Assembly: GCF_030160635.1 (NCBI RefSeq) | Contig: NZ_BSOS01000009.1 | Coordinates: forward strand, 1-54,139 | Direction of reading: 5' to 3' | Source: Acidocella aquatica | GTDB taxonomy: Bacteria > Pseudomonadota > Alphaproteobacteria > Acetobacterales > Acetobacteraceae | Length of the DNA: 54,139 nucleotides | Shown: piece after piece, positions 17,913-49,280 of the stretch | Position numbering within the stretch: the stretch's first letter is position 1 | Layout of the letters: every line of letters begins with the position of its first letter | The notes under the pieces: model-generated | Seen by the model: the letters and a program-made list of their open reading frames with translations, nothing else | Told to the model about the DNA's origin: nothing | Database searches by the model: none | Translations under genes and position numbers: made by a program

Positions 17913-17960
17913 GCCCCCCGCCGGGCTGCTAACCGCTAACCCGGTTTTCAGGGGATCATC

Positions 17961-31901: not shown

Positions 31902-32180
31902 ATGAAGGCCGACAACACGACTCAAACCCCCCAGGAAGCCGAACTTGCGCGCCTGCTCGTCGATACCCTCAACCTTGAGGCCGTTGCGAGCGAGATCGAC
32001 CCTGAGATGCCACTTTACGGCGAAGGCCTCGGGCTGGATTCGATCGACATGCTTGAGATTTCGCTCGTCGTGTCACAGCAGTTTGGTGTGAAGCTGCGTG
32101 CGGACGATAGGGACAACGTCAGGATATTCAGCTCGCTGCGTAGCCTCAATGCGTATATCCAAAGCCATCGAGAGCTTTAA
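31902..32180 (+). CDS. Acyl carrier protein of the aryl-polyene cluster
   Basis: A 92-residue acyl carrier protein; the phosphopantetheine serine is Ser47 in GLGLDSIDMLE. Helix II and surrounding acidic residues are normal for carriers of type II polyketide/fatty-acid systems, and the motif closely resembles ApeF/XanC-type carriers of aryl-polyene clusters. It is the first gene of the cluster and its stop is directly followed by the next ATG (32181). Only one carrier is seen here whereas many aryl-polyene clusters have two. No phosphopantetheinyl transferase gene is present in the window. Confidence 0.9.
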   Translation: MKADNTTQTPQEAELARLLVDTLNLEAVASEIDPEMPLYGEGLGLDSIDMLEISLVVSQQFGVKLRADDRDNVRIFSSLRSLNAYIQSHREL

Positions 32181-32759
32181 ATGCGTGCCTTGACCGCCGC
32201 CCGCACGCCTCTTTCGGCGGTAGTGGGCTTATGTATCGTTTCGCTATCGTTTCATATTGCCATCGTCGCGACAAACCATGTCCACCTCACATTGGCGCTG
32301 GGCTTCGGGGAATTGTTCAAGCTGGGCCTGATCACCTTCTCGGCGCTCACGCATTGGGGGCTTTATGGCAGCCTCCTGCTCACATTCGCACTGACACTGC
32401 GGCCGGGCCGCGAGGCCCTCATCACCGGCATGGCGCGCAGGCTGCAGGGGGATGTCTCCGGCGAATTGGCGCTTTACACGCGCCGCGTCACATTCGCCTG
32501 GTGCTGCTTTTTCGCGGCGCAGCTCACAATGTCGATCACCCTGTTTTGCTTTGCCCCGCTGGTCGTATGGTCGGTTTTCGTCAATATCCTCGATATCCCT
32601 TTGGTCGTGGCAATGTTTGCCGCCGAATACATGTGCCGGCTCCGCTGCCTGCGTAACCCGCCCCGGCATTCGCTCGCCATGATCCTGGACATGGTTGCCA
32701 ACTCCAGGCGGGATGTGGGCACATGGCCAGCTCTCTCCGATGCCGCGCGGCCGGACTGA
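32181..32759 (+). CDS. COG4648-type membrane protein of aryl-polyene cluster
   Basis: A 192-residue integral membrane protein with about four hydrophobic segments (near 12-30, 48-70, 103-125, 130-150). The patterns RPGREALITGMARRLQG, YTRRVTFAWCCFFAAQ and FVNILDIPLVVAMFAAEY are those of COG4648 proteins, which occur almost only in aryl-polyene clusters between the carrier and the ligase genes. The exact function is unknown; it is thought to be needed for the pathway at the inner membrane. It starts immediately after the ACP stop and overlaps the ligase gene. Confidence 0.8.
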   Translation: MRALTAARTPLSAVVGLCIVSLSFHIAIVATNHVHLTLALGFGELFKLGLITFSALTHWGLYGSLLLTFALTLRPGREALITGMARRLQGDVSGELALYTRRVTFAWCCFFAAQLTMSITLFCFAPLVVWSVFVNILDIPLVVAMFAAEYMCRLRCLRNPPRHSLAMILDMVANSRRDVGTWPALSDAARPD

Positions 32760-34119
32760 TTATATCGTGAATTGCGCATCGCCGTTGGCCGGTAATGCAG
32801 GCTATGCCATTGCGCGGCATGCGGACGATAACGCCATCGTCGCGGTACGCGCCGGAAGGCCGATCCGCCGGGCTGAATTACGCAGGGATATCGCGGCCCT
32901 CGCGTCCAGGTTGCCCGCGCATCGATATATCCTCAATCTCTGCACCGACCGCTACCGGTTCATGGTCGGTGTGGCCGCCGCGCTGCGGCGCCAGCAGATC
33001 AGCCTGATGCCGCCTAGCACCGCGCCAGGTGTCCTGCGGGCGCTGGCGGAGGATTATCCCGATCTTTATGCGCTCACCGACACCACGCCCCCGCCGCTCA
33101 CCAGTTTTATCTACCCCGGCACGTTTGATGACGCTGGCGCGGCGGCGGAGATGGAGGACGTGCCCCGCGATCAGCCGGCGCTTATTTTGTTCACCTCCGG
33201 TTCGACCGGCAAGCCAAAGCCGGTGCCAAAAACATGGTCCACGCTGGTGCATAGCGCGCGGGCTGCCGGTGATCGGCTTGGGCTCTCGCGGCTGCGTGGC
33301 GGCACGGTCATCGCTACAGTGCCGCATCAGCATAGTTATGGGCTTGAATCGGCAATCCTGCTCGGGCTCCAGCATGGTCTGACCATCGACACCGGCTGGC
33401 CGCTTTATCCGGCCGATATCCGCGCGGCGCTTGAACGAACGGCCGGGCCGCGCATCCTGGTCACCACGCCGGTGCATCTGCGCGCCCTTGTCGCCGAGCC
33501 GGGGGGGATGCCCCGTGCCGATCTTATCCTCTCGGCGACGGCGCCGCTGCCGGTATCGCTCGCGGCCCAGGCCGAGGCCTGTTTCGGCGCGCCCCTCATC
33601 GAAATTTACGGCTGCACGGAGGCGGGACAAGTCGCGACCCGGCGGACCGCACAGGAAACCCAGTGGCAATGCTTCGATGGCGTCGCGTTAAGCCAGAACG
33701 AGCACGGCACCTGGGCCAGCGGTGCCGCGGTGGAGGGGGTGGCGCCGCTGCAGGACGTGATCGAGCTGACTGGCCCCGGGTTGTTTCTGCTGGGTGGCCG
33801 CTCGGCCGATCTCATAGATATTGCCGGCAAGCGCACCTCCTTGACGCATCTCAACCACCAGCTCCAGAGCATCCCAGGTGTAGAGGATGGCGTCTTTTTC
33901 ATGGGGGAAGCGAACGGCTCGCACGTTTCACGCCTGACGGCTCTGGTGGTGGCGCCGGCACTGCGGCCCGAGACGATTTTGCAGGCGCTGCGCGAGCGGA
34001 TTGACCCGGCGTTTCTGCCGCGCCCCCTTATCTTCACCGATGCATTGCCGCGCAACGAGCTCGGCAAATTGCCGCGTGAGGCGCTGCTGCGGCTTGCGGG
34101 CCGCGCGCAGGACGCTTAA
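32740..34119 (+). CDS. AMP-dependent acyl/aryl ligase (aryl-polyene starter activation)
   Basis: A 459-residue ANL-superfamily adenylating enzyme from the ATG at 32740. The P-loop FTSGSTGKPKPVPKTW, the A5-type motif EIYGCTEAGQVATRR and the LFLLGGRSADLIDIAGKRT segment (A8) are intact. It is expected to activate 3- or 4-hydroxybenzoate and load it on the ACP, as ApeH-like ligases do. It overlaps the preceding gene by 20 bp; a GTG at 32766 is a possible alternative start. The position between COG4648 and dehydratase genes is the usual aryl-polyene order. Confidence 0.87.
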   Translation: MPRGRTDYIVNCASPLAGNAGYAIARHADDNAIVAVRAGRPIRRAELRRDIAALASRLPAHRYILNLCTDRYRFMVGVAAALRRQQISLMPPSTAPGVLRALAEDYPDLYALTDTTPPPLTSFIYPGTFDDAGAAAEMEDVPRDQPALILFTSGSTGKPKPVPKTWSTLVHSARAAGDRLGLSRLRGGTVIATVPHQHSYGLESAILLGLQHGLTIDTGWPLYPADIRAALERTAGPRILVTTPVHLRALVAEPGGMPRADLILSATAPLPVSLAAQAEACFGAPLIEIYGCTEAGQVATRRTAQETQWQCFDGVALSQNEHGTWASGAAVEGVAPLQDVIELTGPGLFLLGGRSADLIDIAGKRTSLTHLNHQLQSIPGVEDGVFFMGEANGSHVSRLTALVVAPALRPETILQALRERIDPAFLPRPLIFTDALPRNELGKLPREALLRLAGRAQDA

Positions 34120-34121
34120 CC

Positions 34122-34424
34122 GTGTGGCAATCAATGGAACTTCATTTTGCCAGCGACCACCCGGCCATGGCGGGCCACTTCCCCTCCAACCCGATTGTTC
34201 CCGGCGCGCTGATGCTTGATTGCGTGGTAGCGGCCGTTGCCGGAGGGGTAGCCGGTGGCGCGGCCGTCATCCGTGCCGCGAAATTCCTGCATCCTGTCCG
34301 CCCCGGCGAGAGGCTGGACCTGCGGTGGCAAACACAGGTCAACGGCGCGATCAAGTTCGAATGCAGGCTGGCCGGTGGGGGCGCTTTGGCGCTGACAGGC
34401 ACACTCGAGATCAGCCGGCCATGA
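34122..34424 (+). CDS. FabA/FabZ-like hotdog dehydratase (ApeI type)
   Basis: A 100-residue hotdog protein. The sequence HFASDHPAMAGHFPSNPIVPGALMLD contains the H-x-x-x-GHFP-x-x-P-x-x-PG pattern of (3R)-hydroxyacyl-ACP dehydratases. It probably removes water from the beta-hydroxyacyl intermediates to make the conjugated double bonds, possibly together with the second dehydratase at 42237. The start is GTG at 34122 (after AGGA) or ATG at 34134. It overlaps the next gene by four bases. Confidence 0.85.
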   Translation: MWQSMELHFASDHPAMAGHFPSNPIVPGALMLDCVVAAVAGGVAGGAAVIRAAKFLHPVRPGERLDLRWQTQVNGAIKFECRLAGGGALALTGTLEISRP

Positions 34425-35323
34425 CCCAGAAGCTGCTCGTGCAGGAATGGGCGGCCCGGCGCGAGCGCGGGTCTTTGCCGCTGATCAAGCTCGGGGTGTG
34501 GGTCGCCTTGCGCCTCCACCGGCGGGTGGCCCGGCTGTTTCTTTACCCGATCTGCATCTTCTTCCTCGCATCTTCGCCCGCGGCGGCGCGCGGCTCGCGG
34601 GCTTATCTGGCGCGGGTGCTTGGCCGCAAGCCGCGTCTCGCCGATATTTTTTCACATTTTTTAACATTCGCGTCCTGCGTGCTCGACCGCGTCTTCCTCC
34701 TCAATGAGCAACTCGACCAATTTGATATCCGCGTGCACGGCGAGGAGATCGTGCGCGCAATTGAGCAGCGCGGGGGCGGGTGCATCCTGTTGGGCGCGCA
34801 TTTCGGCAGCTTTGAAGTCGCGCGCGCGGTTGGCCGCAACCATGCGGACTTGCCGATCAGCCTTCTCATGTATGAGGAAAATGCGAAGAAAATCCGCGCG
34901 GCGCTGGCGGCCATCAATCCACGCCTGGCGACGGAGGTCATCGGCCTGGGCCGGATGGATTCGCTGATTTCAGTGGCGGAGCGCCTCCGGCAAGGACATT
35001 TCATCGGTGTGCTCGCGGACCGCAATATCAATGGCAAGGACATGGTGAGCTATCCGTTCCTGGGCGCGCCCGCCAAATTTCCGCAAGGGCCGTTCCGTGT
35101 GGCCATGCTTCTGCAGTGCCCGGTTGTGATGATGGTTGGCGTCTACCGGGGCGGGCGGACCTATGACGTGTTTTTTGAAACCCTGGCCGAAGCCCCCGAA
35201 TCGCGGCCAAAGGACAGCGATGCGTGGCTTGATGGCATCATGCGCCAATATGCCGCCCGGCTTGAGCATCATTGCCGCGAGGCGCCGTTCAACTGGTTCA
35301 ACTTCTATGATTTCTGGGCATGA
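34421..35323 (+). CDS. LPLAT-type acyltransferase (lipid A acyltransferase-like)
   Basis: A 300-residue membrane-associated acyltransferase resembling LpxL/HtrB. A hydrophobic stretch at about 38-52 (RLFLYPICIFFLASS) anchors it and the H-x4-E motif is HFGSFE (H127, E132) in CILLGAHFGSFEVARAV. In xanthomonadin and aryl-polyene clusters such enzymes attach the polyene to a lipid. It starts at the ATG at 34421, overlapping the dehydratase stop by ATGA, and is followed by lolA-like and MMPL genes for transport. The acyl acceptor is unknown. Confidence 0.87.
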   Translation: MTQKLLVQEWAARRERGSLPLIKLGVWVALRLHRRVARLFLYPICIFFLASSPAAARGSRAYLARVLGRKPRLADIFSHFLTFASCVLDRVFLLNEQLDQFDIRVHGEEIVRAIEQRGGGCILLGAHFGSFEVARAVGRNHADLPISLLMYEENAKKIRAALAAINPRLATEVIGLGRMDSLISVAERLRQGHFIGVLADRNINGKDMVSYPFLGAPAKFPQGPFRVAMLLQCPVVMMVGVYRGGRTYDVFFETLAEAPESRPKDSDAWLDGIMRQYAARLEHHCREAPFNWFNFYDFWA

Positions 35324-35324
35324 G

Positions 35325-35930
35325 ATGCGGATAATCCGGCTATTGCCCTGGCTTTGCGCGCTCTGCATCGCGAGCGCGCCCTTGGCCCTGGCGCAGCCTG
35401 CCACCGCGAACTGGGGGCTGGCGCAATTGATGCAAGAGCTTGCGCAGGTCCACTCGGCCTCCGCCAGCTTCACCGAACGCAAGACCGTGCAGGTGTTGAG
35501 CACGCCGCTGGTGGCATCAGGCTCCCTGAGCTACGTGGCGCCTGATTATATACGCAAGGCGACGTTGTTGCCGGTGCCGGAAAATTTTGTTCTCGACCAT
35601 GACCAGATCACCATAAGCGGCGGCCCGGACCAGCAAACTCATGTTTTTTCGCTGAATGCCGATCCGCGGATCGGCGGGTTGGTCGAAGGGATCCGCGCCA
35701 CGCTCGCAGGTGACCTGCCAGCGCTTGACCATTATTATATCGTACGGCTCAGCGGTGATGCCGCCAATTGGCAGCTTCTGCTGCAGCCCAAAAATCCCGG
35801 CGCCGCCCGTATGATCAAATGGATCATCATTCGCGGCAAACAGAATCATCTTGACGGCCTTGATACCGCGAGCGGCAATGGCGACCATTCGGAGATGAGC
35901 ATTGCCGAAGATGTGAGCGATGCCCAATAA
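35325..35930 (+). CDS. LolA-like periplasmic carrier of the pigment cluster
   Basis: A 201-residue secreted protein. The N-terminal signal peptide (MRIIRLLPWLCALCIASAPLALAQ) is followed by a LolA-like beta-sheet protein (SASFTERKTVQVLSTPLVAS, GSLSYVAPDYIRKATL). LolA-like proteins in aryl-polyene clusters are thought to move the lipid-linked polyene through the periplasm. It begins one base after the acyltransferase stop (ATG at 35325) and overlaps the MMPL exporter start by 11 bp. Confidence 0.87.
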   Translation: MRIIRLLPWLCALCIASAPLALAQPATANWGLAQLMQELAQVHSASASFTERKTVQVLSTPLVASGSLSYVAPDYIRKATLLPVPENFVLDHDQITISGGPDQQTHVFSLNADPRIGGLVEGIRATLAGDLPALDHYYIVRLSGDAANWQLLLQPKNPGAARMIKWIIIRGKQNHLDGLDTASGNGDHSEMSIAEDVSDAQ

Positions 35931-38247
35931 GCGCCGCGCGCTCGGCTTCTGGCTGGTTCTGTTGGTCGCATGTGCCGGTATCATCGCCCGGACCCAGTTT
36001 CGCACCGATATGGGGGCTTTCCTGCCCCAATCGGCGCCGATGGCACAGCAGGTTCTCACCGAGCAGGCGACGAGCGGCGCGGCGTCACATCTGATCGTGC
36101 TGGCGCTCACCGGCGCGCCGGCACCCATACTCGCAGCGATGAGCGAGACCTTGGCCGGGCAACTCCGGCAACGGGCGGAATTCATTGACGTCATCAACGG
36201 CGATGACCAATCCTTCGCCGGGGTGCAGGGTTTTGTCTGGGCCAACCGCTATCTGCTCAGCGCGGATATAACCGCCGATCGTTTCACGGCAACCGGGCTG
36301 CATGCCGCGCTGCTGAATGATCTTGGGCTGCTTGGCTCGGATCTGGGCGGGATGATCCAGCAAACCCTGCCCGGCGACCCAACCGGCGAAGCCCTGACGC
36401 TGCTGCGCCAGCTCGGCCAAGCCCAAGGCCCGGCCAGCATCGGCAATGTGTGGTTTTCAAGCGATGGCGCGCGCGCGCTGTTGCTGGTTCATACCAGCGC
36501 TCCTGGTTTTGACATCGACTCGCAGCAGCAGGCGTTGACGCTGATCAACGGTGATTTCGGCAAGGCCCGCCGTGCGGTGCCGGGTGCGGCGGGGGTGCGC
36601 CTGATTGAAAGCGGGCCGGGGGTGTTCGCCATTCATATTCGCGATACCACCAAGCGCGATGTTACCCGGCTATCATTGCTCGCGATGGCTGGTGCCGTCA
36701 GCCTGTTAAGCTTCGCCTATCGTTCGCCGCGCGTGTTGCTGCTGGGCATTCTGCCCATCGCCAGCGGCGTGCTCGCGGCCATCGCCACGGTGTCGCTGAC
36801 TTTTGGGTTTGTCCACGGCGTTACGCTGGGCTTTGGGGTGACGCTGATCGGCGAATCGATTGATTACGCGATCTATCTGTTTACCCAGACGGCGCGCGGC
36901 GAGACGGCCAGCGACACGATCGCGCGCATCTGGCCGACGCTGCGTCTCGGCATGCTCACCTCGACCGTTGGGTTCAGCGCCATGCTGTTCTCAAGCTTCA
37001 CCGGCTTCGCGCAGCTCGGGTTGTTTTCAATCGCGGGGCTGATTGTCGCGGCCGGTGTTACCCGCTTTGTCCTGCCGCATCTTGTGCCGCAAGGGTTTTG
37101 CGCGGCGGGCGCGGATTCCATATCGCGGCCGCTGCGCGCGGCCATCCGCCAGCGGCGGCGCCTGCGCTGGCTCGTCGCCGCCGGGGTGCTTGCGTCCATC
37201 TTCGCGCTGACGATGCACCGCGGTGCGCTCTGGGATAATAATCTGGAGAATTTGAGCCCGATCCCCGCCAGGGACCAGGCACAGGACCAGATGCTCCGCC
37301 GTGACCTCGGCGTGCCGGATGTCCGCTATTTCGCGGTGTTCAAGGCTGCTGACAAAGAAGGGGCGCTGGAGAAAAGCGAGGACCTGACAGCGAGTCTGAA
37401 CAGCCTTGTGGCGCGCGGGAAGCTTGGCGGGTTCGATGTGCCGAGTATGATTTTGCCCAGCTTAAGGACGCAGCGGGCCCGGCAGGCGGCGTTGCCCGGC
37501 GCGGCCCTGTTACGCGAGCGCTTCACCCAGGCACAGGCCGGCCTGCCGTTCCGCGCGGATGCGTTCGAACCGTTTTTCCGTGATGTGGCCGCAACGAAAA
37601 CCGGCCCGCTCCTGAGCGCCGGCAGCCTGCCGCCGCCGCTGGCGCTCCAGCTCGGATCCATGCTGGTCCGCAGAGACAATGGCTGGGTTGTGATGGCGCC
37701 GCTGCATGATGTCGCCGACCCGGCGGGCGTGGCCCGGGCAATCGCGCTGGCCGGATTGCCTGGCGTGAGGTTCGTTGACCTGAACCATGAATCGGACCAG
37801 CTCCTGCAAACGTTCCAGCGAGAGGCCGTGCTGCTTGCCGTCACCGGCAGCCTTGCCGTTGTGCTCCTTCTGCTCGCCGGGTTGCGCTCCGTGGCGCGCG
37901 TTATCACCGTCGTGGCGCCGCTCGCCGCCGCGGTGATCATGACAGCGGCCCTGCTCACGCTTGGCGGTGGCAAAGTCTCGATTTTCATGGTTGTCGGCTT
38001 CCTGCTCATCGTCGCCGTCGGTTCCAATTATTGTCTCTTCTTCGAACGATCGGCGCCCGATGCCGAGACATGGCACCGATCGATCGCCTCCATCGTCCTG
38101 GCTAATCTCTGCACCGTGTCAGCCTATGGGCTGATGGCCTTATCGAGCATTCCAGTGCTGCACGATATCGGCATGACGGTTGCGATGGGCACGTTTCTGA
38201 GCCTCGTCTGCGCTGCCTTGCTCAAGGCACCGGGACTGGAGGCATGA
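35920..38247 (+). CDS. MMPL/RND-family exporter
   Basis: A 775-residue transporter of the MMPL family with about 12 membrane segments in two halves, each with a large periplasmic loop. An N-terminal anchor is followed by LHAALLNDLGLLG-type loop sequence, the SSD-like block at about 245-400 (GVTLIGESIDYAIYLF is the proton-relay type motif) and a second at about 640-770 (VGSNYCLFFERS). It likely extrudes the finished aryl polyene from the inner membrane. It is co-translated with the LolA-like gene upstream and with the hydrolase downstream (ATGA at 38244). Confidence 0.88.
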   Translation: MPNKRRALGFWLVLLVACAGIIARTQFRTDMGAFLPQSAPMAQQVLTEQATSGAASHLIVLALTGAPAPILAAMSETLAGQLRQRAEFIDVINGDDQSFAGVQGFVWANRYLLSADITADRFTATGLHAALLNDLGLLGSDLGGMIQQTLPGDPTGEALTLLRQLGQAQGPASIGNVWFSSDGARALLLVHTSAPGFDIDSQQQALTLINGDFGKARRAVPGAAGVRLIESGPGVFAIHIRDTTKRDVTRLSLLAMAGAVSLLSFAYRSPRVLLLGILPIASGVLAAIATVSLTFGFVHGVTLGFGVTLIGESIDYAIYLFTQTARGETASDTIARIWPTLRLGMLTSTVGFSAMLFSSFTGFAQLGLFSIAGLIVAAGVTRFVLPHLVPQGFCAAGADSISRPLRAAIRQRRRLRWLVAAGVLASIFALTMHRGALWDNNLENLSPIPARDQAQDQMLRRDLGVPDVRYFAVFKAADKEGALEKSEDLTASLNSLVARGKLGGFDVPSMILPSLRTQRARQAALPGAALLRERFTQAQAGLPFRADAFEPFFRDVAATKTGPLLSAGSLPPPLALQLGSMLVRRDNGWVVMAPLHDVADPAGVARAIALAGLPGVRFVDLNHESDQLLQTFQREAVLLAVTGSLAVVLLLLAGLRSVARVITVVAPLAAAVIMTAALLTLGGGKVSIFMVVGFLLIVAVGSNYCLFFERSAPDAETWHRSIASIVLANLCTVSAYGLMALSSIPVLHDIGMTVAMGTFLSLVCAALLKAPGLEA

Positions 38248-38954
38248 TCACCCAAATCCTCCACAAGGCGCCGGGCGCCGGGGGCGATCGCGTTTTGCTG
38301 GTCATGCTGCCGGGTGCGGGGATCAAGGCAAGCGCGTTCGTGGAGCATGGCATGGCCGACGCCGTGCATGCGCGCGGGCTGGCCGTGGATATCATCATCG
38401 CGCAGCCGGATCTGGACCTCTATCTTGATGGCGATGTCGCCGCCGCGCTGCATCGCGCGGTTGTCGAACCGGCGCGCGCGCAGGGCTATGCGCGGGTCTG
38501 GCTGCTGGGTATCTCGCTGGGCTGCATGGGCGCGCTGCTCTACGCGAGCGCGCACGCCGCCGCGTTGGAAGGCATGGTGTTGCTGGCACCGTTTCTGGGC
38601 ACAAAAGGCACTGTTGCCGAGCTGGGCCGGGCCGGGGGGCTGGCGGCATGGCCCGCCGCGCGCTCCGCCGCCACGGCGCCGGAACAGCGCATGCTGGTTT
38701 GGCTGCGGGATTTTCTCGTTCAGCGGGCGGTATCTCCGGCGCTCTATCTCGGGTATGGGCGCGAAGACCGTTTTGCCCGTGGGCACCGGCTGCTCGCGGA
38801 CGCGCTGCCCGCCGCGCGCGTTGTAACCGCCGCTGGCGGCCATGATTGGGATACCTGGCGCACGCTCTGGCGGCTTGTGCTGGACACCTCGCCCTTTCTC
38901 CCGGCTGGTGAGGCCACGGCGGCGGAACTGGACGATGCGGCACACGGTGAATAA
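38244..38954 (+). CDS. Alpha/beta hydrolase of the pigment cluster
   Basis: A 236-residue alpha/beta-hydrolase-fold protein. The nucleophile elbow is GISLG (Ser91), followed by the acidic residue region GYGREDRF (Asp175) and His200 (AGGHDWDTW). It lacks signal peptide and membrane spans. Its location between exporter and ketosynthase indicates a pathway role such as thioester editing or ester hydrolysis of the pigment; no specific family assignment is possible. It overlaps the exporter by ATGA and ends 1 bp before the next start. Confidence 0.8.
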   Translation: MITQILHKAPGAGGDRVLLVMLPGAGIKASAFVEHGMADAVHARGLAVDIIIAQPDLDLYLDGDVAAALHRAVVEPARAQGYARVWLLGISLGCMGALLYASAHAAALEGMVLLAPFLGTKGTVAELGRAGGLAAWPAARSAATAPEQRMLVWLRDFLVQRAVSPALYLGYGREDRFARGHRLLADALPAARVVTAAGGHDWDTWRTLWRLVLDTSPFLPAGEATAAELDDAAHGE

Positions 38955-38955
38955 G

Positions 38956-41411: not shown

Positions 41412-42235
41412 TCCGCATTTATATCGAAGGGATCGGCCTATGCGGCCCCGGGCTGAATGGCTGGGAGGCAAGCCGCCCGGTGCTGGCCGGCACGGATGAT
41501 TACGAAGCATCACCAATCTGCGTGCCGGCGAGCATGCTGCTGCCGGCCAATGAACGCCGCCGCGCGCCCCAGATCGTGAAAATTGCGCTTGCCATTGGCG
41601 CCGAGGCCTTCGCCATGGCGGGGCGCGATCCGGCTGGAACGGCGGCGGTCTTCGCGTCCTCCGGCGGTGACGGCGATACGATCCACGAAATCCTGCATGT
41701 TCTGGCGTCGCCGAACCGTGAACTTTCACCGACGCGGTTCCATAATTCGGTCCATAATGCCGCTGCCGGGTATTGGAGTATCGCCACCCACTCCCGGGCC
41801 GCCTCAACCAGCCTTTGCTGTTACAATGACAGCTTTGCCGCGGGGCTGCTTGAGGCTGCTGTGCAGGCGGCGGCAACGCGGGAATCTGTCGCGCTGATCG
41901 CCTATGACGTGCAATATCCATCTCCGCTCCGCGACGCGCGGCCGCTCGCCGCGGCCTTTGGCATAGCGCTGGTGCTGTCCCCGGCGCCGGGAGCGGCCTC
42001 CATCGCATGTATCGAACTGGAGCTGCGGCCAGGGACTCTCACCTCGCCCGCCTCTGACTCGCCACCGGAGCTTGAGTGGTTGCGCCAGGGCACTCCCGCG
42101 GCGCGGAGCCTGCCGCTGCTGGCGGCGCTGGCGCGCCGGGAGGAGAGCAGCATCAGCCTGAATTATCTGGATGATATGGTCCTCGCGTTGCGCATCACGC
42201 CGCTTCCGGCATCGCCCAATCCGCGTGGAGCCTGA
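41408..42235 (+). CDS. Ketosynthase-like chain-length factor (ketoacyl-synt_2 type)
   Basis: A 275-residue thiolase-like protein starting at the GTG at 41408 in a GTGA overlap with the ketosynthase. It matches the N-terminal half of ketosynthases (FHNSVHNAAAGYWSIATHSRAASTSLCCYNDSFAAGLLEAA) but the catalytic Cys of a KS is not in the standard position, and no C-terminal catalytic His motif is present. Such proteins pair with the ketosynthase as a chain-length factor in aryl-polyene clusters (ApeC-like). The number of elongation rounds it sets cannot be predicted. Confidence 0.85.
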   Translation: MIRIYIEGIGLCGPGLNGWEASRPVLAGTDDYEASPICVPASMLLPANERRRAPQIVKIALAIGAEAFAMAGRDPAGTAAVFASSGGDGDTIHEILHVLASPNRELSPTRFHNSVHNAAAGYWSIATHSRAASTSLCCYNDSFAAGLLEAAVQAAATRESVALIAYDVQYPSPLRDARPLAAAFGIALVLSPAPGAASIACIELELRPGTLTSPASDSPPELEWLRQGTPAARSLPLLAALARREESSISLNYLDDMVLALRITPLPASPNPRGA

Positions 42236-42236
42236 C

Positions 42237-42677
42237 ATGACCATCATTAACCGCGAACAGATCCTCACGATGATCCCCCATTGCGGCGCCATGTGCCTGC
42301 TCGACGAGGTGCTGAGCTGGAACGATGTTTCGGTGCGATGCCTCTCGCGCCGCTACCAGGACCAGGACAACCCGATGCGGCGCGCGAATGGCGAGTTGGG
42401 GGTGGCGTGCGGCATCGAGATTGCGGCTCAGGCCATGGCGGTTCAAGGCCGGCTCAGCGCTGGAAATAGCGGCCCGCCTCGCCGTGGTTATCTGGTTAGC
42501 CTGCGCGACGTCGCGTTGCGAACCGGACTCCTCGATGCTGCAAGTGGCGATCTCATCATCGAGGCGGAGCGCCTGCTGGGTGATGCCGATGGCGCGACCT
42601 ACCGCTTTCGTCTCGCGCGCCACGACACTGAACTCCTCAGCGGCCGCGCCACCGTTGTTTTCGAGGCGGGGGAATGA
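42237..42677 (+). CDS. Second hotdog dehydratase (ApeP type)
   Basis: A 146-residue hotdog protein. The N-terminal IPHCGAMCLLDEVLSWNDVSVRC and the middle DNPMRRANGELG, CGIEIAAQAMAV, RRGYLVSLRDVAL are the pattern of ApeP-type dehydratases, a companion of ApeI. It may stabilise or support dehydration of the polyene intermediates. The ATG at 42237 follows GTGGAGCCTGAC. It ends in an ATGA overlap with the ketoreductase gene (42674). Confidence 0.87.
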   Translation: MTIINREQILTMIPHCGAMCLLDEVLSWNDVSVRCLSRRYQDQDNPMRRANGELGVACGIEIAAQAMAVQGRLSAGNSGPPRRGYLVSLRDVALRTGLLDAASGDLIIEAERLLGDADGATYRFRLARHDTELLSGRATVVFEAGE

Positions 42678-43393
42678 GCCGCGCCCTGGTCACTGGCGGG
42701 AGCGGCACCATCGGCGCCGCCATCGCGCGCGCGCTGGCGGCGGCGGGGCATCATGTCCATGTGCATGCACACTGCCAGCCTGGCCGCGCGGAAGATCTGG
42801 CGGCGGAGATCGCGGCTGGCGGCGGCGCGGCGGAGGCCGTGCGGTTCGATGTCACCAATGCGGAGGAAACACAGCGCGCGCTCACGCGGTTGCTTGAGGC
42901 CGGTCCGATCCAAATTCTGGTGAATAACGCGGGGATCCATGATGACGCGGTGATGCCGGGGATGCGCCCTGAACAATGGTCCAACGTCATAGACGTGTCG
43001 CTGAACGGATTTTTCAACGTCACGCAGCCGCTCCTGATGCCGATGATCCGCACGCGGTGGGGGCGGATCATCAACATCTCCTCGGTTGCGGCCATCATGG
43101 GCAATCGCGGCCAGGCCAATTATGCGGCGGCGAAGGCGGGGCTGCACGGGGCCACGCGGTCGCTGGCGCTGGAACTCGCCAGCCGGGGCATCACGGTCAA
43201 CACCGTCGCGCCGGGGATTATCGCCTCACCCGCGATCGAAGATGTGTTCCCCAAGGAGGCGATCGACCGGCTGGTGCCGATGAAACGGGCCGGCCGGCCG
43301 GAGGAAGTCGCCGATCTGGTGGCGTTTCTCGCATCGGAACGTGCCGGTTACATCTCCGGGCAGCAGATTTCCATCAATGGTGGAATGATTTAG
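42674..43393 (+). CDS. 3-ketoacyl-ACP reductase (SDR, FabG-like)
   Basis: A 239-residue short-chain dehydrogenase/reductase. The cofactor motif TGGSGTIGAAIA is at 7-18, the catalytic triad Ser137, Tyr150 and Lys154 (INISSVAAIMG, QANYAAAKAG) is complete. It reduces the beta-ketoacyl-ACP to the beta-hydroxy form, as ApeQ does in aryl-polyene synthesis. It is the last of the right-pointing biosynthetic run and overlaps the convergent glycosyltransferase by 20 bp. Confidence 0.92.
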   Translation: MSRALVTGGSGTIGAAIARALAAAGHHVHVHAHCQPGRAEDLAAEIAAGGGAAEAVRFDVTNAEETQRALTRLLEAGPIQILVNNAGIHDDAVMPGMRPEQWSNVIDVSLNGFFNVTQPLLMPMIRTRWGRIINISSVAAIMGNRGQANYAAAKAGLHGATRSLALELASRGITVNTVAPGIIASPAIEDVFPKEAIDRLVPMKRAGRPEEVADLVAFLASERAGYISGQQISINGGMI

Positions 43394-44168
43394 AGGATGA
43401 TCGATTAAGCAGCCGCGCCACCAACCACGGCAGGCGGGGGAGGAATCCACCGATCAGGCGCAGGTGCATCGCGGCCAGCGCGATGTTGTCGCGGACGTAG
43501 CGAAAATGCGAGACACCGCCATCCGCGGCCCGGAAATACCGCACGGGGACAGGCTGATTTATGGCTGGCACGCCGCGCCACGAAAGCCGGACCACGGCTT
43601 CGGTGTCAAAATCGAACCGGCGCATCCAGCGGCTGGACTCCATGATGGTTCTCAACGCTGCCAGTGGATAGACACGAAACCCAAACAGAACATCGCCAAT
43701 TCCGCTCAGTGTCTCGAGCCTGGCGAGGGCGTTCGACACGCGCCGCCCGATGACGCGGATGCGCGGCGCATTGTGGTCGAAAACCGGCGTGCCAAGAATC
43801 ATCGCCTGAGGGTTGCGCTGCGAAAGCTGCATGAATGCGGGGATCATGGATGCCGGATGCTGGCCATCGGCATCCATGACCAGAACATGGGTGAAACCCG
43901 CCGTGGCCGCCGCCCGGATACCATCAAGCACGGCGGCACCCTTGCCGCCATTGCGGCTTCGGCGGATCACCCGCACCCCGCGTTGGTTTGCGCTCAACGC
44001 CGCAAGCGCCTCGCCGGTTCCGTCAGTGCTGCCGTCGATCACCACCCACACAGGCAGCCAATGGCTTCGCGCGTCCGCGACGGTCTCGAAGAGTTTTTCG
44101 CCGGTGTTGTAGCTGGGGATCAGAACGAGATGGGTATTCTCCGCGTGATCCGCATTTCGCGCCGGCAT
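43374..44168 (-). CDS. Family 2 glycosyltransferase
   Basis: A 264-residue GT2 enzyme from the ATG at 44168. The GT-A fold motifs are present: LVLIPSYNTGE, VVIDGSTDGTGEAL, SRNGGKGAAVLDGIRAA and the DxD motif DADGQHP, then VFGFRVYP-like segments and FDTEAVVRLSWRGV. No signal peptide is visible; the C-terminus is hydrophobic or basic and may bind the membrane. It may glycosylate the polyene or a carrier lipid. It begins 5 bp after the halogenase-like gene stops, so the two form an operon on the minus strand. Confidence 0.87.
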   Translation of the reverse strand: MPARNADHAENTHLVLIPSYNTGEKLFETVADARSHWLPVWVVIDGSTDGTGEALAALSANQRGVRVIRRSRNGGKGAAVLDGIRAAATAGFTHVLVMDADGQHPASMIPAFMQLSQRNPQAMILGTPVFDHNAPRIRVIGRRVSNALARLETLSGIGDVLFGFRVYPLAALRTIMESSRWMRRFDFDTEAVVRLSWRGVPAINQPVPVRYFRAADGGVSHFRYVRDNIALAAMHLRLIGGFLPRLPWLVARLLNRSSSKSFHH

Positions 44169-44173
44169 CGCCG

Positions 44174-45580
44174 CTACCCAACTGTTGACCCAGCTTGCGC
44201 GGGGGCGGGGCGGCGGGCAAAAACGCGATGCCGCAGATGGGCGAATTTTGTTATGTAGTAGATCGTTCTGAACATATAGAGGCGCGCGCGGATCGGCCAT
44301 CCATCAAAAATGCCGCCGGCGAGCAAGGAGAGAACAGCTTCCTCCATGCGGAACCAGTTGCGCGGCGACATGAACAGGTTGCGCATCGCCGGTTCGCGGA
44401 TGCGATAGATGAACCAGGTGAACGCCGCCAGAACCTTGCGCGTCTCGGCATCGTAGCGGCGGAGCGCGCGTGCCGCGCGAGGCGGTGAACGCAGGCAGGC
44501 ATCCACCGCGTCAGCGGCCCAGAACGCCGTGGTCATCGCGAGGTATACGCCGCTGGAAAACACTGGATCGATAAAGGCGCAGGCGTCACCAACCAGGATG
44601 AAGTTCTGGCCGCTGGTGCGTTTGACGCCATAGGAATAATTGCCGGTTGCGGTCACCTCACCGGCGAGCTGAGCATCCTTGAGGCGGTCCGCGATCTCGG
44701 GACAGGAAGCGATGACGCTCATGAAGAAGCTCTTCAAGTCCGCGCCGCGGTTTTTAAGAAATGGCGCCTGGCAGACGGCGCCGATGCTGGTTGTGCCATC
44801 AGAGAGCGGGATGAACCAGAACCAGCCATGGTCAAACCAGACGATGCTGATATTGCCCTCGGCTTTTCCTGGCAGACGGCGCGCGCCGGTAAAATGCCCG
44901 AAGATGGCCGCGCTGTTGTTCCTGGGGTTGCGCTCCTTCATCTCCAGCTGCGCCGCCAATAGCGTGTCACGGCCTGAGGCATCGACGACGAAGGCAGCTG
45001 TCCATTGCCGCGTGCTTGCGTCCTCGCCGCGGCCGGTAATAAGCGGATGACCGCCGTCTGGAAACTCAATCGAGGTGATGCGGCAGCCCTCGATCACCTC
45101 GGCGCCCTTTGCCGCGGCATTTTTTAACAGGATGTGATCGAAGGCCGAGCGGCGGACCTGGAAAGAGTAGGGGAAGCGTTTGTCCCAGGCATTCGCGAAA
45201 TCATATCTGACGCTTTTGCCGTGATAGGGCGAGACGAATTCGATTCCATGTTTTTGGATCGAGGATGTCTCAATTTTCTCACGAACGCCCAGACGGTCAA
45301 ATAACGGCAGGTTATGCGGCAGCAACGACTCACCGATATGGAAACGCGGATGCCGGTCTTTCTCGCCCAAAATCACGCGGTGGCCCCGTTCCGCCAGCAA
45401 CGCCGCGATTGTGGACCCCGCAGGGCCGCCGCCAACAACAAACACATCACAATCCGTTTGTGCTGCGGGAAGCTCACTCTGCTGAAGCTGCGGCAATCTC
45501 GGTCCCCTCCCTGTACCGGCGGACAGGTTGCAGAGCATTGACCCCGATACTGTATTCGCCGATGAACGATTCAGTAACAT
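44174..45580 (-). CDS. Flavin-dependent halogenase-like oxidoreductase
   Basis: A 468-residue FAD enzyme. The dinucleotide motif VVGGGPAGSTIAALL is at 47-62, FHIGESLLP at about 80. The halogenase signature W-x-W-x-I-P is in GWFWFIPL (252-259), and F-x-x-P-x-x-S-x-G is in FIDPVFSSG (336-344). Together they indicate a carrier-tethered halogenase rather than a plain monooxygenase. Xanthomonadins are brominated aryl polyenes, so this gene is the probable brominase or chlorinase; a hydroxylase cannot be ruled out. No flavin reductase is in the window. The start at 45580 is the farthest; ATG 45538 is an alternative. It is divergent from the methyltransferase. Confidence 0.85.
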   Translation of the reverse strand: MLLNRSSANTVSGSMLCNLSAGTGRGPRLPQLQQSELPAAQTDCDVFVVGGGPAGSTIAALLAERGHRVILGEKDRHPRFHIGESLLPHNLPLFDRLGVREKIETSSIQKHGIEFVSPYHGKSVRYDFANAWDKRFPYSFQVRRSAFDHILLKNAAAKGAEVIEGCRITSIEFPDGGHPLITGRGEDASTRQWTAAFVVDASGRDTLLAAQLEMKERNPRNNSAAIFGHFTGARRLPGKAEGNISIVWFDHGWFWFIPLSDGTTSIGAVCQAPFLKNRGADLKSFFMSVIASCPEIADRLKDAQLAGEVTATGNYSYGVKRTSGQNFILVGDACAFIDPVFSSGVYLAMTTAFWAADAVDACLRSPPRAARALRRYDAETRKVLAAFTWFIYRIREPAMRNLFMSPRNWFRMEEAVLSLLAGGIFDGWPIRARLYMFRTIYYITKFAHLRHRVFARRPAPAQAGSTVG

Positions 45581-45600
45581 TAAGCCACAGGTACGCCTCT

Positions 45601-46374
45601 ATGTCTAATCATCAGGAGCGCCCAGAGGTTACACAACCGCCGTTGGTTGCCTCGGCGTACTTCGCGGATCCGGCGCGGCGGCTGTCCTTTGTGCGCGATT
45701 TATTCAACCGCTCGGCGCAGCATTACGACGGGGTCAACCGGCTGTTTTCATTGGGCTCCGGCGCCTGGTACCGCCGCACCAGCCTGCGCAAGGCCGGCGT
45801 GCGCCCTGGTGTGAAAATTGTGGACGTTGCCGTTGGAACCGGCCTGCTGGCGCGCGAAGCGATCACGCTCACCGGCGATCTGGGTGCGGTCATCGGTGTT
45901 GACGTCAGCGAAGCCATGCTCGCCATTGCACGCAAGAACCTTGGTATCCGCCTGATCCAGGCCACCGCCGAGGCGCTGCCCCTGGCGCCTGACATCGCCG
46001 ATTTCGTGACCATGGGCTACGCGCTCCGGCATCTTGCGGATATCGAGGCGGCATTGCGCGAAGCGATGCGGATATTGCGGCCTGGCGGCACCATCCTGCT
46101 GCTGGAAATCAGCGCGCCGCGCAAACGGCTGAGCCGAATACTGGCGGCGGCTTATATCGGCGGTATTCTGCCGCTGCTCTCCTTGCTGATGACCCGCGAG
46201 CGAGGCTCGCGGGCACTCATGCGTTATCATTGGAAAACGATCGCCAACTGCATGCCGCCCGATGCAATTATGCGGGTCTTGACCGAGAGCGGATTTCTCA
46301 ATGTGCGATGCGTGAACGAGTTTGATCTGTTCCAGCGATACACGGCCCAAAAACCAGACCATGAGCCTGCATGA
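45601..46374 (+). CDS. Class I SAM-dependent methyltransferase (UbiE/MenG-like)
   Basis: A 257-residue methyltransferase from the ATG at 45601, which follows ACAGG; the ATG at 45562 is possible. SAM-binding motif I is DVAVGTGLLAREA, followed by GVDVSEAMLAIARKN and motif IV-like RPGGTILLLEIS. UbiE-type enzymes methylate quinone or aromatic rings; here the likely target is the aryl head of the polyene (C- or O-methylation). It is co-translated with the antiporter downstream by an ATGA overlap (46371). Confidence 0.88.
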   Translation: MSNHQERPEVTQPPLVASAYFADPARRLSFVRDLFNRSAQHYDGVNRLFSLGSGAWYRRTSLRKAGVRPGVKIVDVAVGTGLLAREAITLTGDLGAVIGVDVSEAMLAIARKNLGIRLIQATAEALPLAPDIADFVTMGYALRHLADIEAALREAMRILRPGGTILLLEISAPRKRLSRILAAAYIGGILPLLSLLMTRERGSRALMRYHWKTIANCMPPDAIMRVLTESGFLNVRCVNEFDLFQRYTAQKPDHEPA

Positions 46375-47669
46375 CGCTCGCCGCCCCAATGATTACCTCC
46401 ACCCAGCAGACGGAGACATTGCTCTTCTCCATTCTTATTCAGCTGGTGATCATGATCGGCGCCGCGCGGATCATGAACTTGGTCTTCCGGCGGTTCGGGC
46501 AGCCGGGCGTGGTTGGCGAAATCATGGCCGGGCTGCTGCTTGGCCCATCTTTTTTTGGCCATTTCTTTCCAGCCTTTTCCGCGAGCGTATTTGGCGCCAA
46601 GCCGGCGGCGCCGATCGTGATCCTGTCACAGATCGGCCTCATATTGCTGATGTGTCAGATCGGGATGAGCTTTGAGTTCAATCATCTGCGTGAGGCGCGG
46701 GCACGCAGGGGATTGTTGCCGCTCGCGGCTGTATCGGTCATGGTCCCCTTCGGTCTTGGCGTCTGGCTCGGCCATCTCTCCGCGCCGGTTTTTGCGGGGC
46801 AGATTCCCGTAACCCTATATTCGCTCTTTTGCGGCGTCGCGATGGCGATCACCGCCGTGCCCATCCTTGGACGCATCCTCGCCGAATACGGGATGCTCCG
46901 GCATGAACTTGGCGCCCTCGCCATCTCAGCCGCCGCCATCAACGATGTTGCGGGCTGGGTGCTCCTCGCGGGCGTATCCGCCGCTGCCACGGCAACATTC
47001 TCACCCCAAAAATCCGCACTTCAGGTCGGTCTCATACTGTGTTTCGTGCTGGTCTGCGTGCTGGTGCTCCGGCCCGCCGCACGCGCCCTGCTCCGGAAAT
47101 TTCCAATCATCAACGGTGAAATTTCTCTATCGCTGATGGCAATCGCCCTCATTTGCATATTCCTGCTCGGCATGTGCACCTTCAGACTCGGCATCTTCAC
47201 GATCTTCGGCGGCTTTGCCGCCGGGCTGCTGGTCCATCATGATCGCGCCTTCGTCGAAGCCTGGCGCCGCCAGGTCGGCGGTTTCGTACTGGTATTCTTC
47301 CTGCCGGTGTTCTTCACCTTCACGGGCCTTCGCACCAACCTGCTCGGCCTGACCTCCGCCACCGATTGGCTCTGGCTGCTGGCGTTCGTCGCGGCAGGAA
47401 CCTTGGGCAAGGTCGTTCCGGTCTTCATCGCCGGCCGGCTGGCCGGCTACAACAGCCCGGCGGCGCTCCTCATTGGCGTATTGATGAACACGCGCGCACT
47501 CATGGAACTGATCGTCCTCAACATCGGCCTGGAAACCGGATTTCTTCCCGAGAAGGTCTTCACCATGCTCGTAATCCTGGCTGTGGCAACAACACTGATG
47601 ACCGGCCCTCTTTTGCAAATCCTGATGCCGAAGCTTAGTCTGGCGGTGACACGCAGCAGCGCGGCCTGA
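46371..47669 (+). CDS. CPA2 family cation:proton antiporter
   Basis: A 432-residue membrane protein with about 12 hydrophobic segments of the NhaP/KefB monovalent cation antiporter-2 type. GVVGEIMAGLLLGPSFFG lies in segment 2; the AINDVAGWVLLAG and MELIVLNIGLETGFL parts fit the transport core, including an acidic residue pair region. It has no C-terminal RCK/TrkA-N domain, so regulation differs from KefB. It lies inside the pigment cluster. It may maintain ion gradients for pigment export or merely share the promoter (inference). Confidence 0.87.
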   Translation: MTLAAPMITSTQQTETLLFSILIQLVIMIGAARIMNLVFRRFGQPGVVGEIMAGLLLGPSFFGHFFPAFSASVFGAKPAAPIVILSQIGLILLMCQIGMSFEFNHLREARARRGLLPLAAVSVMVPFGLGVWLGHLSAPVFAGQIPVTLYSLFCGVAMAITAVPILGRILAEYGMLRHELGALAISAAAINDVAGWVLLAGVSAAATATFSPQKSALQVGLILCFVLVCVLVLRPAARALLRKFPIINGEISLSLMAIALICIFLLGMCTFRLGIFTIFGGFAAGLLVHHDRAFVEAWRRQVGGFVLVFFLPVFFTFTGLRTNLLGLTSATDWLWLLAFVAAGTLGKVVPVFIAGRLAGYNSPAALLIGVLMNTRALMELIVLNIGLETGFLPEKVFTMLVILAVATTLMTGPLLQILMPKLSLAVTRSSAA

Positions 47670-47720
47670 GGCCGTGCATCACGCACGCTCTAAATTATAA
47701 GGATAGAGGACGATTCAGAG

Positions 47721-47753
47721 TTCAAATTGGCCGGCAAAGCGGACCAATTTGAA
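47721..47753. other. Inverted repeat between convergent genes
   Basis: TTCAAATTGG (47721-47730) and CCAATTTGAA (47744-47753) form a 10-bp perfect stem with a 13-nt loop, between the antiporter and the convergent chorismatase gene. It could work as a bidirectional terminator, although no T-run follows in either direction. Confidence 0.5.
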
Positions 47754-47764
47754 GTCATTGCATT

Positions 47765-48790
47765 CTAAGCCGAACGGCGGAAGGCCTCTATTTCCATCAG
47801 CAGATCGGATCGGCAGATGTCGCCGCGCAAATATAACCGCTCCGCATCTGCGCCAAAAACCGCGTCGACGGCGGGTTCAACCGCCGCGCAATCACCTGGG
47901 TCCTGTACATATATCTTTACCGACCAACGGCCGCTCAGCGGCGCTGTGGCGGCTTGCGCGGCCGCGCCGATCAGTGCGCGCAGATTAGCCGCCGTCTCCG
48001 CGATCTGGCCCGGGAGATCGCCGCGATGGCGCGTTTCGTGGCCAACGATACTGGCGGTGCCGGAGATAAACAACGATTCCGCGCTTGCGCGCGCGTAAAT
48101 CGATGCCCGTGAAAAGCTCGGGCTGCAGGGGCCATAAATTGGCGGATATGCATAGGCACTGACCTGGCGGGGATTTTCAATCGTCATCGCGGGCTCGCGC
48201 GCCGCCAGAAAATAGATCACCGGCGCACCCTGATGCCCGCCGACACCACTTGCAACCGGCGGAACCTGTTGGCGCAACCGGGCCGAGAATGCCCGGTGAC
48301 GGCCGATATTAAAACGCCTGTAGCGCTCTAACCCCTGATCGTGATCGGTGATCGAGGTCAGATAATTCCAGAACCGGATCGGCGTTTGAAAGCCAATGTC
48401 CTGCATGAAATCGAAAATATTCAAATAGGCCGCTTCGACCGCCGCCTCCAGCGAGGCTTTTCCGGTTTCGTCCAGCTTGATTGCACCGAAGGCGAGATCG
48501 TCGCTACAGGCTCCGATGACAGGCCCAACCTGACAAGGCCGGCACGGGGAGGCCGCCGTCCAGATTTCGAACATCGCGCCTCCAGCCGCGGGCAAGAGTG
48601 GCGCGGCCACGAACGGGCAGGCTGGAGGTAAGACGCCAGGCCGCTCAATACCGTAACCAACCACGCCGAGAATCCGGCTCGGTTGTGCCAGAAGCGCAAG
48701 GGCCGTGTGGAGGTTGGCATAGTGAACCGCGAAATTGGCCGCGGGCTCCCGCGAAATTGAAGAATCGGGGGATAAAAGAGATACTTGCAA
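47765..48790 (-). CDS. Chorismatase (XanB2/Hyg5/FkbO family)
   Basis: A 341-residue enzyme from the TTG at 48790, which follows GAAGGAG with good spacing; ATG starts farther upstream (to 48904) are possible but lack such a site. The stretches GLERYRRFNIGRHRAF, IENPRQVSAYAYPPIYGP, SPSFSRASIY and SLFISGTASIVGHETRHRGDL are hallmarks of chorismatases, which hydrolyse chorismate to a hydroxybenzoate (3-HBA by Hyg5, 3-HBA plus 4-HBA by XanB2) or to a dihydrodiol (FkbO). Fold is RidA-like trimeric. It supplies the aryl starter for the ligase in the pigment cluster. Which product type cannot be settled by eye. Confidence 0.92.
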   Translation of the reverse strand: MQVSLLSPDSSISREPAANFAVHYANLHTALALLAQPSRILGVVGYGIERPGVLPPACPFVAAPLLPAAGGAMFEIWTAASPCRPCQVGPVIGACSDDLAFGAIKLDETGKASLEAAVEAAYLNIFDFMQDIGFQTPIRFWNYLTSITDHDQGLERYRRFNIGRHRAFSARLRQQVPPVASGVGGHQGAPVIYFLAAREPAMTIENPRQVSAYAYPPIYGPCSPSFSRASIYARASAESLFISGTASIVGHETRHRGDLPGQIAETAANLRALIGAAAQAATAPLSGRWSVKIYVQDPGDCAAVEPAVDAVFGADAERLYLRGDICRSDLLMEIEAFRRSA

Positions 48791-49280
48791 AACGGCTCCT
48801 TCAACAATTGCCTGGGCTGACCCGCGGCGTGGTGCAGGAGCTTTGGATGCGTAAGCCTGCCGGAGAGCCCGGCTCCGGCGATCTGGCCAGTTCTCCGCGG
48901 GCATTGCCCCCTCAAACCCCGTTGCGGAAATATCCTCCGGCCAGCGAGGCCGGTCACAGGGTTAAGTAAGCCTCATCTGACATACATCGGTCAAGGCTTC
49001 ACTGGAGCACATGGCACCCTTGAACGGTGTTGAAAATCACGGACCGGCCGGGTCGTCTACGCGAGGGCGCCAAGAGCAAGAATGACGCCAGATTGACCCG
49101 CCGCGCGGCCGCCGCAAACTGCCCGAGCGGCTAGCGGAAATGTTGATTCTTAAGTCTGGGCAAGCAGATTGATTCAGGTCAAGGCCCGTACGATCGTCAT
49201 CGGCTAGTACCTCGGCACAGTGGTTTTGACGGGTTGAAGGTGGCTCGGCTGTAGTGGTGGCAGCGCCATTGGGTCGACGA
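48791..49280. other. Gap with no recognised gene
   Basis: About 490 bp between the chorismatase start and the RES remnant. Apart from the 38-codon possible N-terminal extension of the chorismatase frame (48791-48904) and GC-rich background, I see no gene, repeat array or clear terminator. Confidence 0.5.

Follow-up and report, generated by a model that had tools for sequence, protein, structure and literature searches.

Arcuflavin, a pigment of the betaproteobacterium Azoarcus BH72, is assigned to the arc genes, which comprise a halogenase (arcA), chorismatase (arcB), glycosyltransferase (arcE), antiporter (arcG), ketoreductase, dehydratase, half-ketosynthase and ketosynthase (arcH-K), exporter (arcP), LolA protein (arcQ), acyltransferase (arcR), second dehydratase (arcS), AMP ligase (arcT), hypothetical protein (arcU) and acyl carrier protein (arcV) (PMC3949708). 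Insertions in arcK and arcT abolished the pigment, ArcB made 3-hydroxybenzoate, and ArcT showed ATP exchange with 3-hydroxybenzoate (PMC3949708). Within the Acetobacteraceae, where Acidocella is placed (PMC7179689), aryl-polyene clusters were found in 19 of the 43 acidophilic type strains and 28 of the 96 acetous ones, with a probable halogenase among the linked genes and others called hypothetical (PMC8776678). Here we describe a cluster of 18 genes, at positions 31902-48904 of a 54,139-nucleotide stretch of Acidocella aquatica DNA (NZ_BSOS01000009.1; the window), which is one whole contig of a 4.03 Mb draft genome. Judged by gene content, gene order, conservation and active-site residues, it is very probably a horizontally shared aryl-polyene cluster of the xanthomonadin/arcuflavin type, established in the genus Acidocella.

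Gene content and relationships of the cluster

A preliminary description of the window, made from the sequence alone, had proposed a xanthomonadin-like aryl-polyene cluster with its own starter supply and halogenase, which would extend the group. Domain searches located every enzyme it named at 31902-48904, together with an ArcU-like protein, an alpha/beta hydrolase, an unnamed protein (u395) and a CPA2 antiporter that it had not listed. The gene content supports a xanthomonadin/arcuflavin-like cluster in an Acetobacteraceae genome. The suggested extension of the group was weakened, however, as Acetobacteraceae aryl-polyene clusters with a 'probable halogenase' had already been reported in 2021 (PMC8776678), and arcuflavin was already known as the characterised product of a relative outside the gammaproteobacteria (PMC3949708). 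Because of the 2021 report, the cluster is to be regarded as a variant form of an already known kind.

Along the forward strand the genes run in the order acyl carrier protein (ACP), ArcU-like protein, AMP ligase, hotdog dehydratase, LPLAT acyltransferase, LolA-like carrier, MMPL exporter, alpha/beta hydrolase, u395, ketosynthase (KS), half-KS chain-length factor (CLF), second dehydratase and ketoreductase (KR). A downstream tail holds a family 2 glycosyltransferase (GT2) and the halogenase-like gene on the reverse strand, a UbiE-type methyltransferase and the CPA2 antiporter on the forward strand, and the chorismatase on the reverse strand. Thus a type II KS with its half-KS CLF, a KR, two dehydratases (the second weakly matched), an ACP and an AMP ligase occur together, and the anchoring and export set of LPLAT, glycosyltransferase, LolA and MMPL is also complete.

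Every arc gene listed above is matched by a gene of the window, through its domain or its place, though the arc genes of BH72 lie at two loci and those of the window at one. Sequences of Azoarcus indigens and other relatives were used for this comparison, BH72 itself being represented by its gene table. Relative to arc, the window adds u395 and the methyltransferase, and no counterpart of ArcM or ArcN was found in it. Several betaproteobacterial clusters carry a presumed ArcN deacetylase and a presumed ArcM between exporter and KS; the former matched NodB-type models below cut-off, and the latter was assigned by place and by eye, with no NCBIfam match. With the Xanthomonas xanthomonadin cluster, likened by gene content and not sequence to sequence, the window shares a XanB2-type chorismatase and the KS/CLF pair, although its host is alphaproteobacterial. 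The E. coli cluster (apeA-apeR) has the core of ACP, AMP ligase, dehydratase, LolA, MMPL, KS and KR in common with it (PMC8253772), whereas the window has its own chorismatase, halogenase and antiporter, and a single ACP.

Conservation of the grouping was assessed in 100 cluster loci of relatives (80, used for the gene counts given here, and 20 further, several contigs occurring twice) and in 61 genomes, of which 37 belong to Acidocella. The full core of ten genes (ACP, AMP ligase, dehydratase, LPLAT, LolA, MMPL, KS, CLF, dehydratase and KR) was present in 38 of the 80 loci, 14 of these 38 being Acidocella-type, and 33 of the 38 kept the order of the window on one strand. The grouping of the core genes is therefore more than chance. 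Within Acidocella, an aryl-polyene KS with at least 63% identity to that of the window was found in 20/37 genomes, among them Acidocella aromatica DSM 27026 (KS at 111704 of NZ_JACHFJ010000010.1). A chorismatase match accompanied the KS in 17 of these 20, and occurred in 4 of the other 17.

Several observations count against this assignment. The tail was less constant than the stretch from ACP to KR: a halogenase was present in 16 of 22 Acidocella-type loci and a chorismatase in 9, many of these loci being short contigs that end early. Ten loci were 21 kb long, and four of them (L053, L064, L065 and L069) had no chorismatase; L065 had none of the five tail genes. In the genomes of L065 and L069 (G021 and G026) the chorismatase sits on another contig. 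One further copy (L036 of genome G004) had nothing upstream of LolA and neither GT2 nor halogenase in 20 kb. The betaproteobacterial queries for the presumed ArcM and ArcN gave no match in Acidocella-type loci, and none of the chorismatases of the 61 genomes, the window's included, reached the NCBIfam cut-off. A limited literature search showed no pigment from this organism.

A KS tree covering the window and 81 loci (82 rows) was computed by a quick method, unrooted and with Shimodaira-Hasegawa-like approximate likelihood ratio (SH-aLRT) support only. The window KS fell in a starred 23-row clade (support 99), joined by the KS of genome G050 (87) and locus L063 (96). On the same side lay a 35-row, mostly betaproteobacterial clade including Azoarcus, Azonexus, Zoogloea and Hydrogenophaga. 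A starred branch (98) separated the 60 rows of the window's side from the other 22, Komagataeibacter and Acidisoma among them, and this indicates at least two aryl-polyene lineages in Acetobacteraceae. By KS sequence, the Acidocella lineage lies nearer the arc type than does the Komagataeibacter/Acidisoma lineage. The Komagataeibacter and Acidisoma clusters nevertheless share the core genes and a halogenase-like gene with the window, and u395 is found in Komagataeibacter, after the halogenase and not before the KS as in the Acidocella type. A published KS tree was broadly congruent with the species tree, apparently with fewer outside groups (PMC8776678); the present tree is read otherwise. From it we infer horizontal sharing of the cluster, and, the tree being unrooted, no direction of transfer is given.

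Proposed pathway, starter supply and ring modification

We infer all chemical steps, and the pigment itself, from sequence; the likely product would be an aryl polyene primed with 3-hydroxybenzoate and anchored to a lipid. Gene starts are given as corrected by eye, and E-values of domain matches are given in brackets. The AMP ligase (ArcT/ApeH-like; 32695-34119, forward, start uncertain, 32713 or 32740; AMP-binding, 2.8e-25) would put hydroxybenzoate onto the ACP (ArcV/ApeE-like; 31902-32180, forward; PP-binding, 1.8e-7, NF006617 above cut-off), which has its Ser in the motif GLDSIDM. Between the two, in the ArcU/ApeG place, lies a small membrane protein without a Pfam family (32181-32759, forward), for which numerous relatives have a match next to their ACP and AMP ligase; the BH72 table gives the order arcV-arcU-arcT (PMC3949708).

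The starter would then be lengthened with malonyl units by the KS (ArcK/ApeO-like; 40215-41411, forward; Ketoacyl-synt, 3.4e-24, and its C-terminal family, 9e-30; NF006618 above cut-off), in which the Cys-His-His residues are present, together with the CLF-like half-KS (ArcJ/ApeC-like; about 41408-42235, forward; Ketoacyl-synt_2, 4.2e-28). Reduction by the KR (FabG-like, ArcH/ApeQ; 42674-43393, forward; adh_short_C2, 7.4e-55) and the action of two dehydratases would give a conjugated polyene. Dehydratase 1 (ArcS/ApeI-like; 34122-34424, forward) matched FabA (2.5e-6) and, below cut-off, the ApeI-like model (0.0025). Dehydratase 2 (ArcI/ApeP-like; 42237-42677, forward) fell below the Pfam cut-off for the ApeP-like model (0.0038; 17.3 versus 27 bits) and was assigned because of its place and tblastn matches in relatives.

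The chain would be freed and anchored to a lipid or glycolipid by the LPLAT acyltransferase (ArcR-like; about 34421-35323, forward; Lip_A_acyltrans, 4.2e-14) and GT2 (ArcE-like; about 43374-44168, reverse, start 44168 or 44300; Glycos_transf_2, 1.6e-20). The alpha/beta hydrolase (38244-38954, forward; Hydrolase_4, 6.7e-6, and Abhydrolase_6, 2.9e-4, both below cut-off) is a candidate thioesterase for freeing the product from the ACP, and is matched in many loci of Acidocella and in some betaproteobacterial ones. Transport to the outer membrane would fall to the LolA-like periplasmic carrier (about 35325-35930, forward; LolA_3, 7e-17; flexirubin LolA2 model, 3e-10, below cut-off), whose N-terminus looks by eye like a signal peptide, and to the MMPL/RND exporter (ArcP/ApeM-like; 35920-38247, forward; MMPL, 1.6e-7). 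The tail also holds a CPA2-type Na+/H+ antiporter (ArcG-like; 46371-47669, forward; Na_H_Exchanger, 3e-44). At the outer membrane the pigment may serve as a light screen and radical quencher.

The starter itself would come from the chorismatase (ArcB-like, Hyg5/XanB2 type; 47765-48904, reverse; FkbO_Hyg5-like_N, 1.1e-29), converting chorismate to 3-hydroxybenzoate and perhaps some 4-hydroxybenzoate. The protein scored above the Pfam cut-off (103 versus 27) and below that of NCBIfam (218 versus 325), and its PDB matches included 5ag3 (2.2e-45) and the FKBO structure 4bps (4.1e-39). It carries SGTAS and CRSDLL, as 5ag3 does, where FKBO has SATAG and AREDLL; with the Cys and Gly of 5ag3 kept, and Ala at both places in FKBO, it tests as the XanB2/Hyg5 type and not as FkbO. 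Among cluster relatives (window counted, fragments L049 and L076 left out) the Gly was found in 32/32 aligned rows and the Cys in 30/32, the other two being gaps. These two positions presumably decide the product. An alignment of chorismatases does not by itself predict the product, according to PMC3949708. The proposal that the cluster supplies its own starter was thus borne out to the extent of Hyg5/XanB2-type residues. A general role for the enzyme as a ubiquinone source in Acidocella was also considered, no UbiC chorismate lyase match having been found in the genome of the window. It was rejected, since 13 of the 37 Acidocella genomes have neither a KS nor a chorismatase match.

The ring may be altered by the methyltransferase and the halogenase-like flavoenzyme. 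The former, S-adenosylmethionine-dependent and of the UbiE type, is divergent from the halogenase gene (about 45562-46374, forward, start 45562 or 45601; Ubie_methyltran, 8.2e-32, or 3e-32 with the shortened frame). The latter (ArcA-like; 44174-45538, reverse; Trp_halogenase, 5.3e-30) has its motifs intact: GGGPAG, the Lys of KHG, which aligns with the Lys of ChlB4 (7fco), and GWFWFIP. Its best PDB match was ChlB4 (1.8e-58), followed by 8zop (another halogenase), 5buk and PltA, several of which we take to act on carrier-bound rings, and all seven of its closest PDB relatives bear the name of a halogenase or alkylhalidase. In the halogenase proteins of the relatives (window counted, fragment L063 left out) the Lys was present in 39/39 and GWxWxIP in 37/39; the two exceptions, L125 and L129, have the lowest identities, 31 and 26%.

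Whether the pigment would be halogenated is left near even. A halogenase-derived hydroxylase, or a halogenase silent for want of halide, would give a pigment without halogen, and we put the chance of this at about one half. It would accord with the enzyme's likeness to monooxygenase models and with arcuflavin (C41H52O4), which is non-brominated despite the presence of arcA (PMC3949708); the retention of Lys and GWxWxIP in 37/39 argues instead for kept halogenase-type chemistry. A working halogenase, giving a brominated or chlorinated pigment as in Xanthomonas, is a serious prospect which we place just short of an even chance. The three motifs and the named PDB relatives favour it. A halogenase has been reported in the clusters of two Xanthomonas species (PMC3691225). 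In that paper, Xanthomonas with the gene had brominated pigments and Lysobacter without it a non-brominated one. The arcuflavin case weighs against a working halogenase, as do the matches below cut-off to both the CmlS (203 of 900 bits) and the QhpG flavin monooxygenase (177 of 240 bits) models, and motifs do not fix substrate or halide.

The u395 protein

The less expected part of the locus is u395 (39034-40218, forward), the window copy of which matched no Pfam or NCBIfam family. In 53 homologues, His42 of a GGH motif and the pair Asn207-Cys208 were invariant, and His210 nearly so (numbered from the Met at 39034). Lnb, the lipoprotein N-acyltransferase listed as DUF4105 (PMC12994826), is a permuted NlpC/P60 protein of Bacteroides, and u395 has the same invariant His followed by Asn-Cys; the fully conserved columns in 34 Lnb_N domains were His, Tyr, Asn and Cys. 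In permuted NlpC/P60 proteins the His comes before the Cys, which sits on a helix, and there is a hydrophobic pocket (PMC3142127). An AlphaFold2 model of u395 (predicted local distance difference score, pLDDT, 87.5; predicted template modelling score, pTM, 0.89) placed the start of a strand (43-49) at the invariant His and the start of a helix (209-219) at the invariant Cys, in numbering based on 39031, so that the His precedes the Cys and the Cys stands at a helix start.

Profile comparisons gave weak matches. With trimmed domains, hhalign set the u395 Cys onto the Cys of Lnb_N (probability 51, P 1.5e-4), where control profiles of the halogenase and chorismatase gave a probability of 0.2; a cruder first attempt with u395 had given 8. 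Taken at E up to 1, the Pfam Lnb_N model matched 14 of 23 u395 members (best 7.2e-5), the window member not among them, and the NCBIfam Lnb model matched 4 of 23 (best 0.031). Scanned singly, 13 of 16 relatives matched Lnb_N over the stretch holding the Cys; L066 alone (7.2e-5, 22.9 bits) passed the cut-off of 22.2. This likeness to Lnb is weak and no fold match was found: Foldseek against the PDB returned nothing at E up to 0.001, and no PDB sequence matched up to E 10, both of which weigh against kinship with this fold. Viral models gave no useful match either, the best (E 0.027, TM 0.31) being an uncharacterised Terrestrivirus protein. Nevertheless, with its invariant His and the Asn-Cys pair after it, u395 may be an acyltransferase or amidase of the permuted NlpC/P60 kind (LRAT/Lnb-like), and we consider membership of that family somewhat more probable than not. 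By eye, Komagataeibacter relatives (L116 and L117, 14457-15788) start with a lipobox-like signal, LAAC, and the Acidocella proteins seemingly have no signal peptide; the family may therefore act on different sides of the membrane.

The distribution of u395 links it to aryl-polyene genes in part of the order. In the class, it occurred in 7 of 289 genomes, the window's included, and stood beside aryl-polyene genes in six; the exception, G096, carries a relative (locus L141) and has no KS at 1e-50. In the order, u395 was present in 31 of 299 genomes and the aryl-polyene KS in 94, with both in 29 (Fisher p 2e-14, not corrected for kinship, the lists being compared by hand). The u395 genomes outside the 29 were G775, whose KS at 2e-80 narrowly missed the limit, and G773, with no KS at 1e-50 but with ACP and AMP-ligase matches adjoining its u395. 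Within 1.5 kb on each side of 36 u395 loci, at least one aryl-polyene-type gene was found in 30, three of these having the ACP only, and none in L135, L188, L191, L202, L203 and L205. When 20 of the 30 genomes with both were sampled, u395 lay inside the KS neighbourhood in 13 and outside it in 7. No u395 was found in plasmid records. As 65 of the 94 KS-bearing genomes are without u395, it is an accessory and not a core part of these clusters.

Its most likely function would be to act late in the pathway on an acyl or amide group, in attachment or trimming. A part in pigment anchoring is a tentative proposal, which we hold to be less probable than not by a wide measure. The same low expectation attaches to the fuller suggestion that u395 founds an aryl-polyene-dedicated Cys-His family, distantly akin to Lnb and LRAT, which would move the finished polyene acyl group from its carrier to an outer-membrane anchor (or free the anchor amine) and would have entered at least two aryl-polyene lineages of Acetobacteraceae. 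A single search of a limited open literature collection showed no NlpC/P60, LRAT or DUF4105 protein tied to aryl polyenes among the papers listed.

Alternatively, u395 could be an analogous replacement of the polysaccharide deacetylase ArcN, performing the same step with a different fold. The two were never found together in 80 loci (u395 in 23, ArcN in 36), and 68 loci with MMPL and KS held u395 in 20, ArcN in 33 and neither in 15; in the Acidocella type, moreover, u395 lies between exporter and KS, the place of ArcN in several betaproteobacterial clusters. This exclusion partly follows taxonomy, however. Among 20 Acetobacteraceae genomes without u395 (sampled from 65), only three had ArcN close to the KS, and 17 had neither there; in those with u395 (20 of 30 sampled) ArcN was close to the KS in two. 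Both of these belong to genus g319, whose u395 is about 525-530 kb away from the KS. A simple exchange of ArcN and u395 was thus not upheld as a rule in these 40 neighbourhoods, and the replacement is improbable.

Other readings, surroundings and significance

Two further assignments of the locus were weighed. The KAS III C-terminal family (PF08541) occurs at four places in the genome, of which only FabH is over cut-off; the other three resemble a DpgA-like enzyme, an HMG-CoA-synthase-like enzyme and a thiolase. No DarB-like KAS III was found in the draft genome (DarB family, 43 versus 450 bits; DarA and DarC were not searched for), which makes a dialkylresorcinol ester an unlikely end product, and this candidate was rejected. 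That the locus serves ordinary fatty-acid or storage-lipid synthesis and makes no pigment, an outcome raised in the preliminary description, is barely credible: its similarities to FabG, FabF and FabZ would fit, but the AMP ligase with chorismatase, the half-KS CLF, LolA/MMPL export, the halogenase, the separate FabH elsewhere and the match of the gene set to arc oppose it, and the relatives do not show such a cluster.

Directly left of the aryl-polyene cluster lie a cytochrome P450 frame (29605-30921, reverse; 2.5e-24) and a TetR gene (about 30990-31646). The latter was considered as a regulator and left out, as it had no match in the 100 cluster loci; one 37% match occurred in one distant relative (L192, L232). 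The left end of the window is lower in G+C (0.511 over the first 2 kb) and carries a phage-type integrase (1932-3233; Pfam, 1.5e-27), a DUF927 protein (4960-7617) and a tRNA-Glu (10324-10399), and may be a mobile element close to a tRNA. Further in, a 1111-residue frame with a Hint domain (13052-16387; 5.4e-43) adjoins a pyridoxal phosphate-dependent decarboxylase (16360-17850) and a protein resembling flavin adenine dinucleotide-dependent monooxygenases (17940-19196).

The aryl-polyene reading would bring an acidophile genus into a known pigment family. As Acidocella has a cultured, sequenced strain with the cluster, product and halogenation would be measurable. For the E. coli cluster, the molecule anchoring the pigment was still not known at the time of its description, and that of a Xenorhabdus relative, a lipid, was identified while the paper was under revision (PMC8253772). 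Conserved with pigment genes in part of the Acetobacteraceae, and bearing an acyltransferase-like His...Asn-Cys signature, u395 would offer a handle on pigment attachment, and the role of its relative in G096, where no aryl-polyene KS accompanies it, may reveal the basic reaction.

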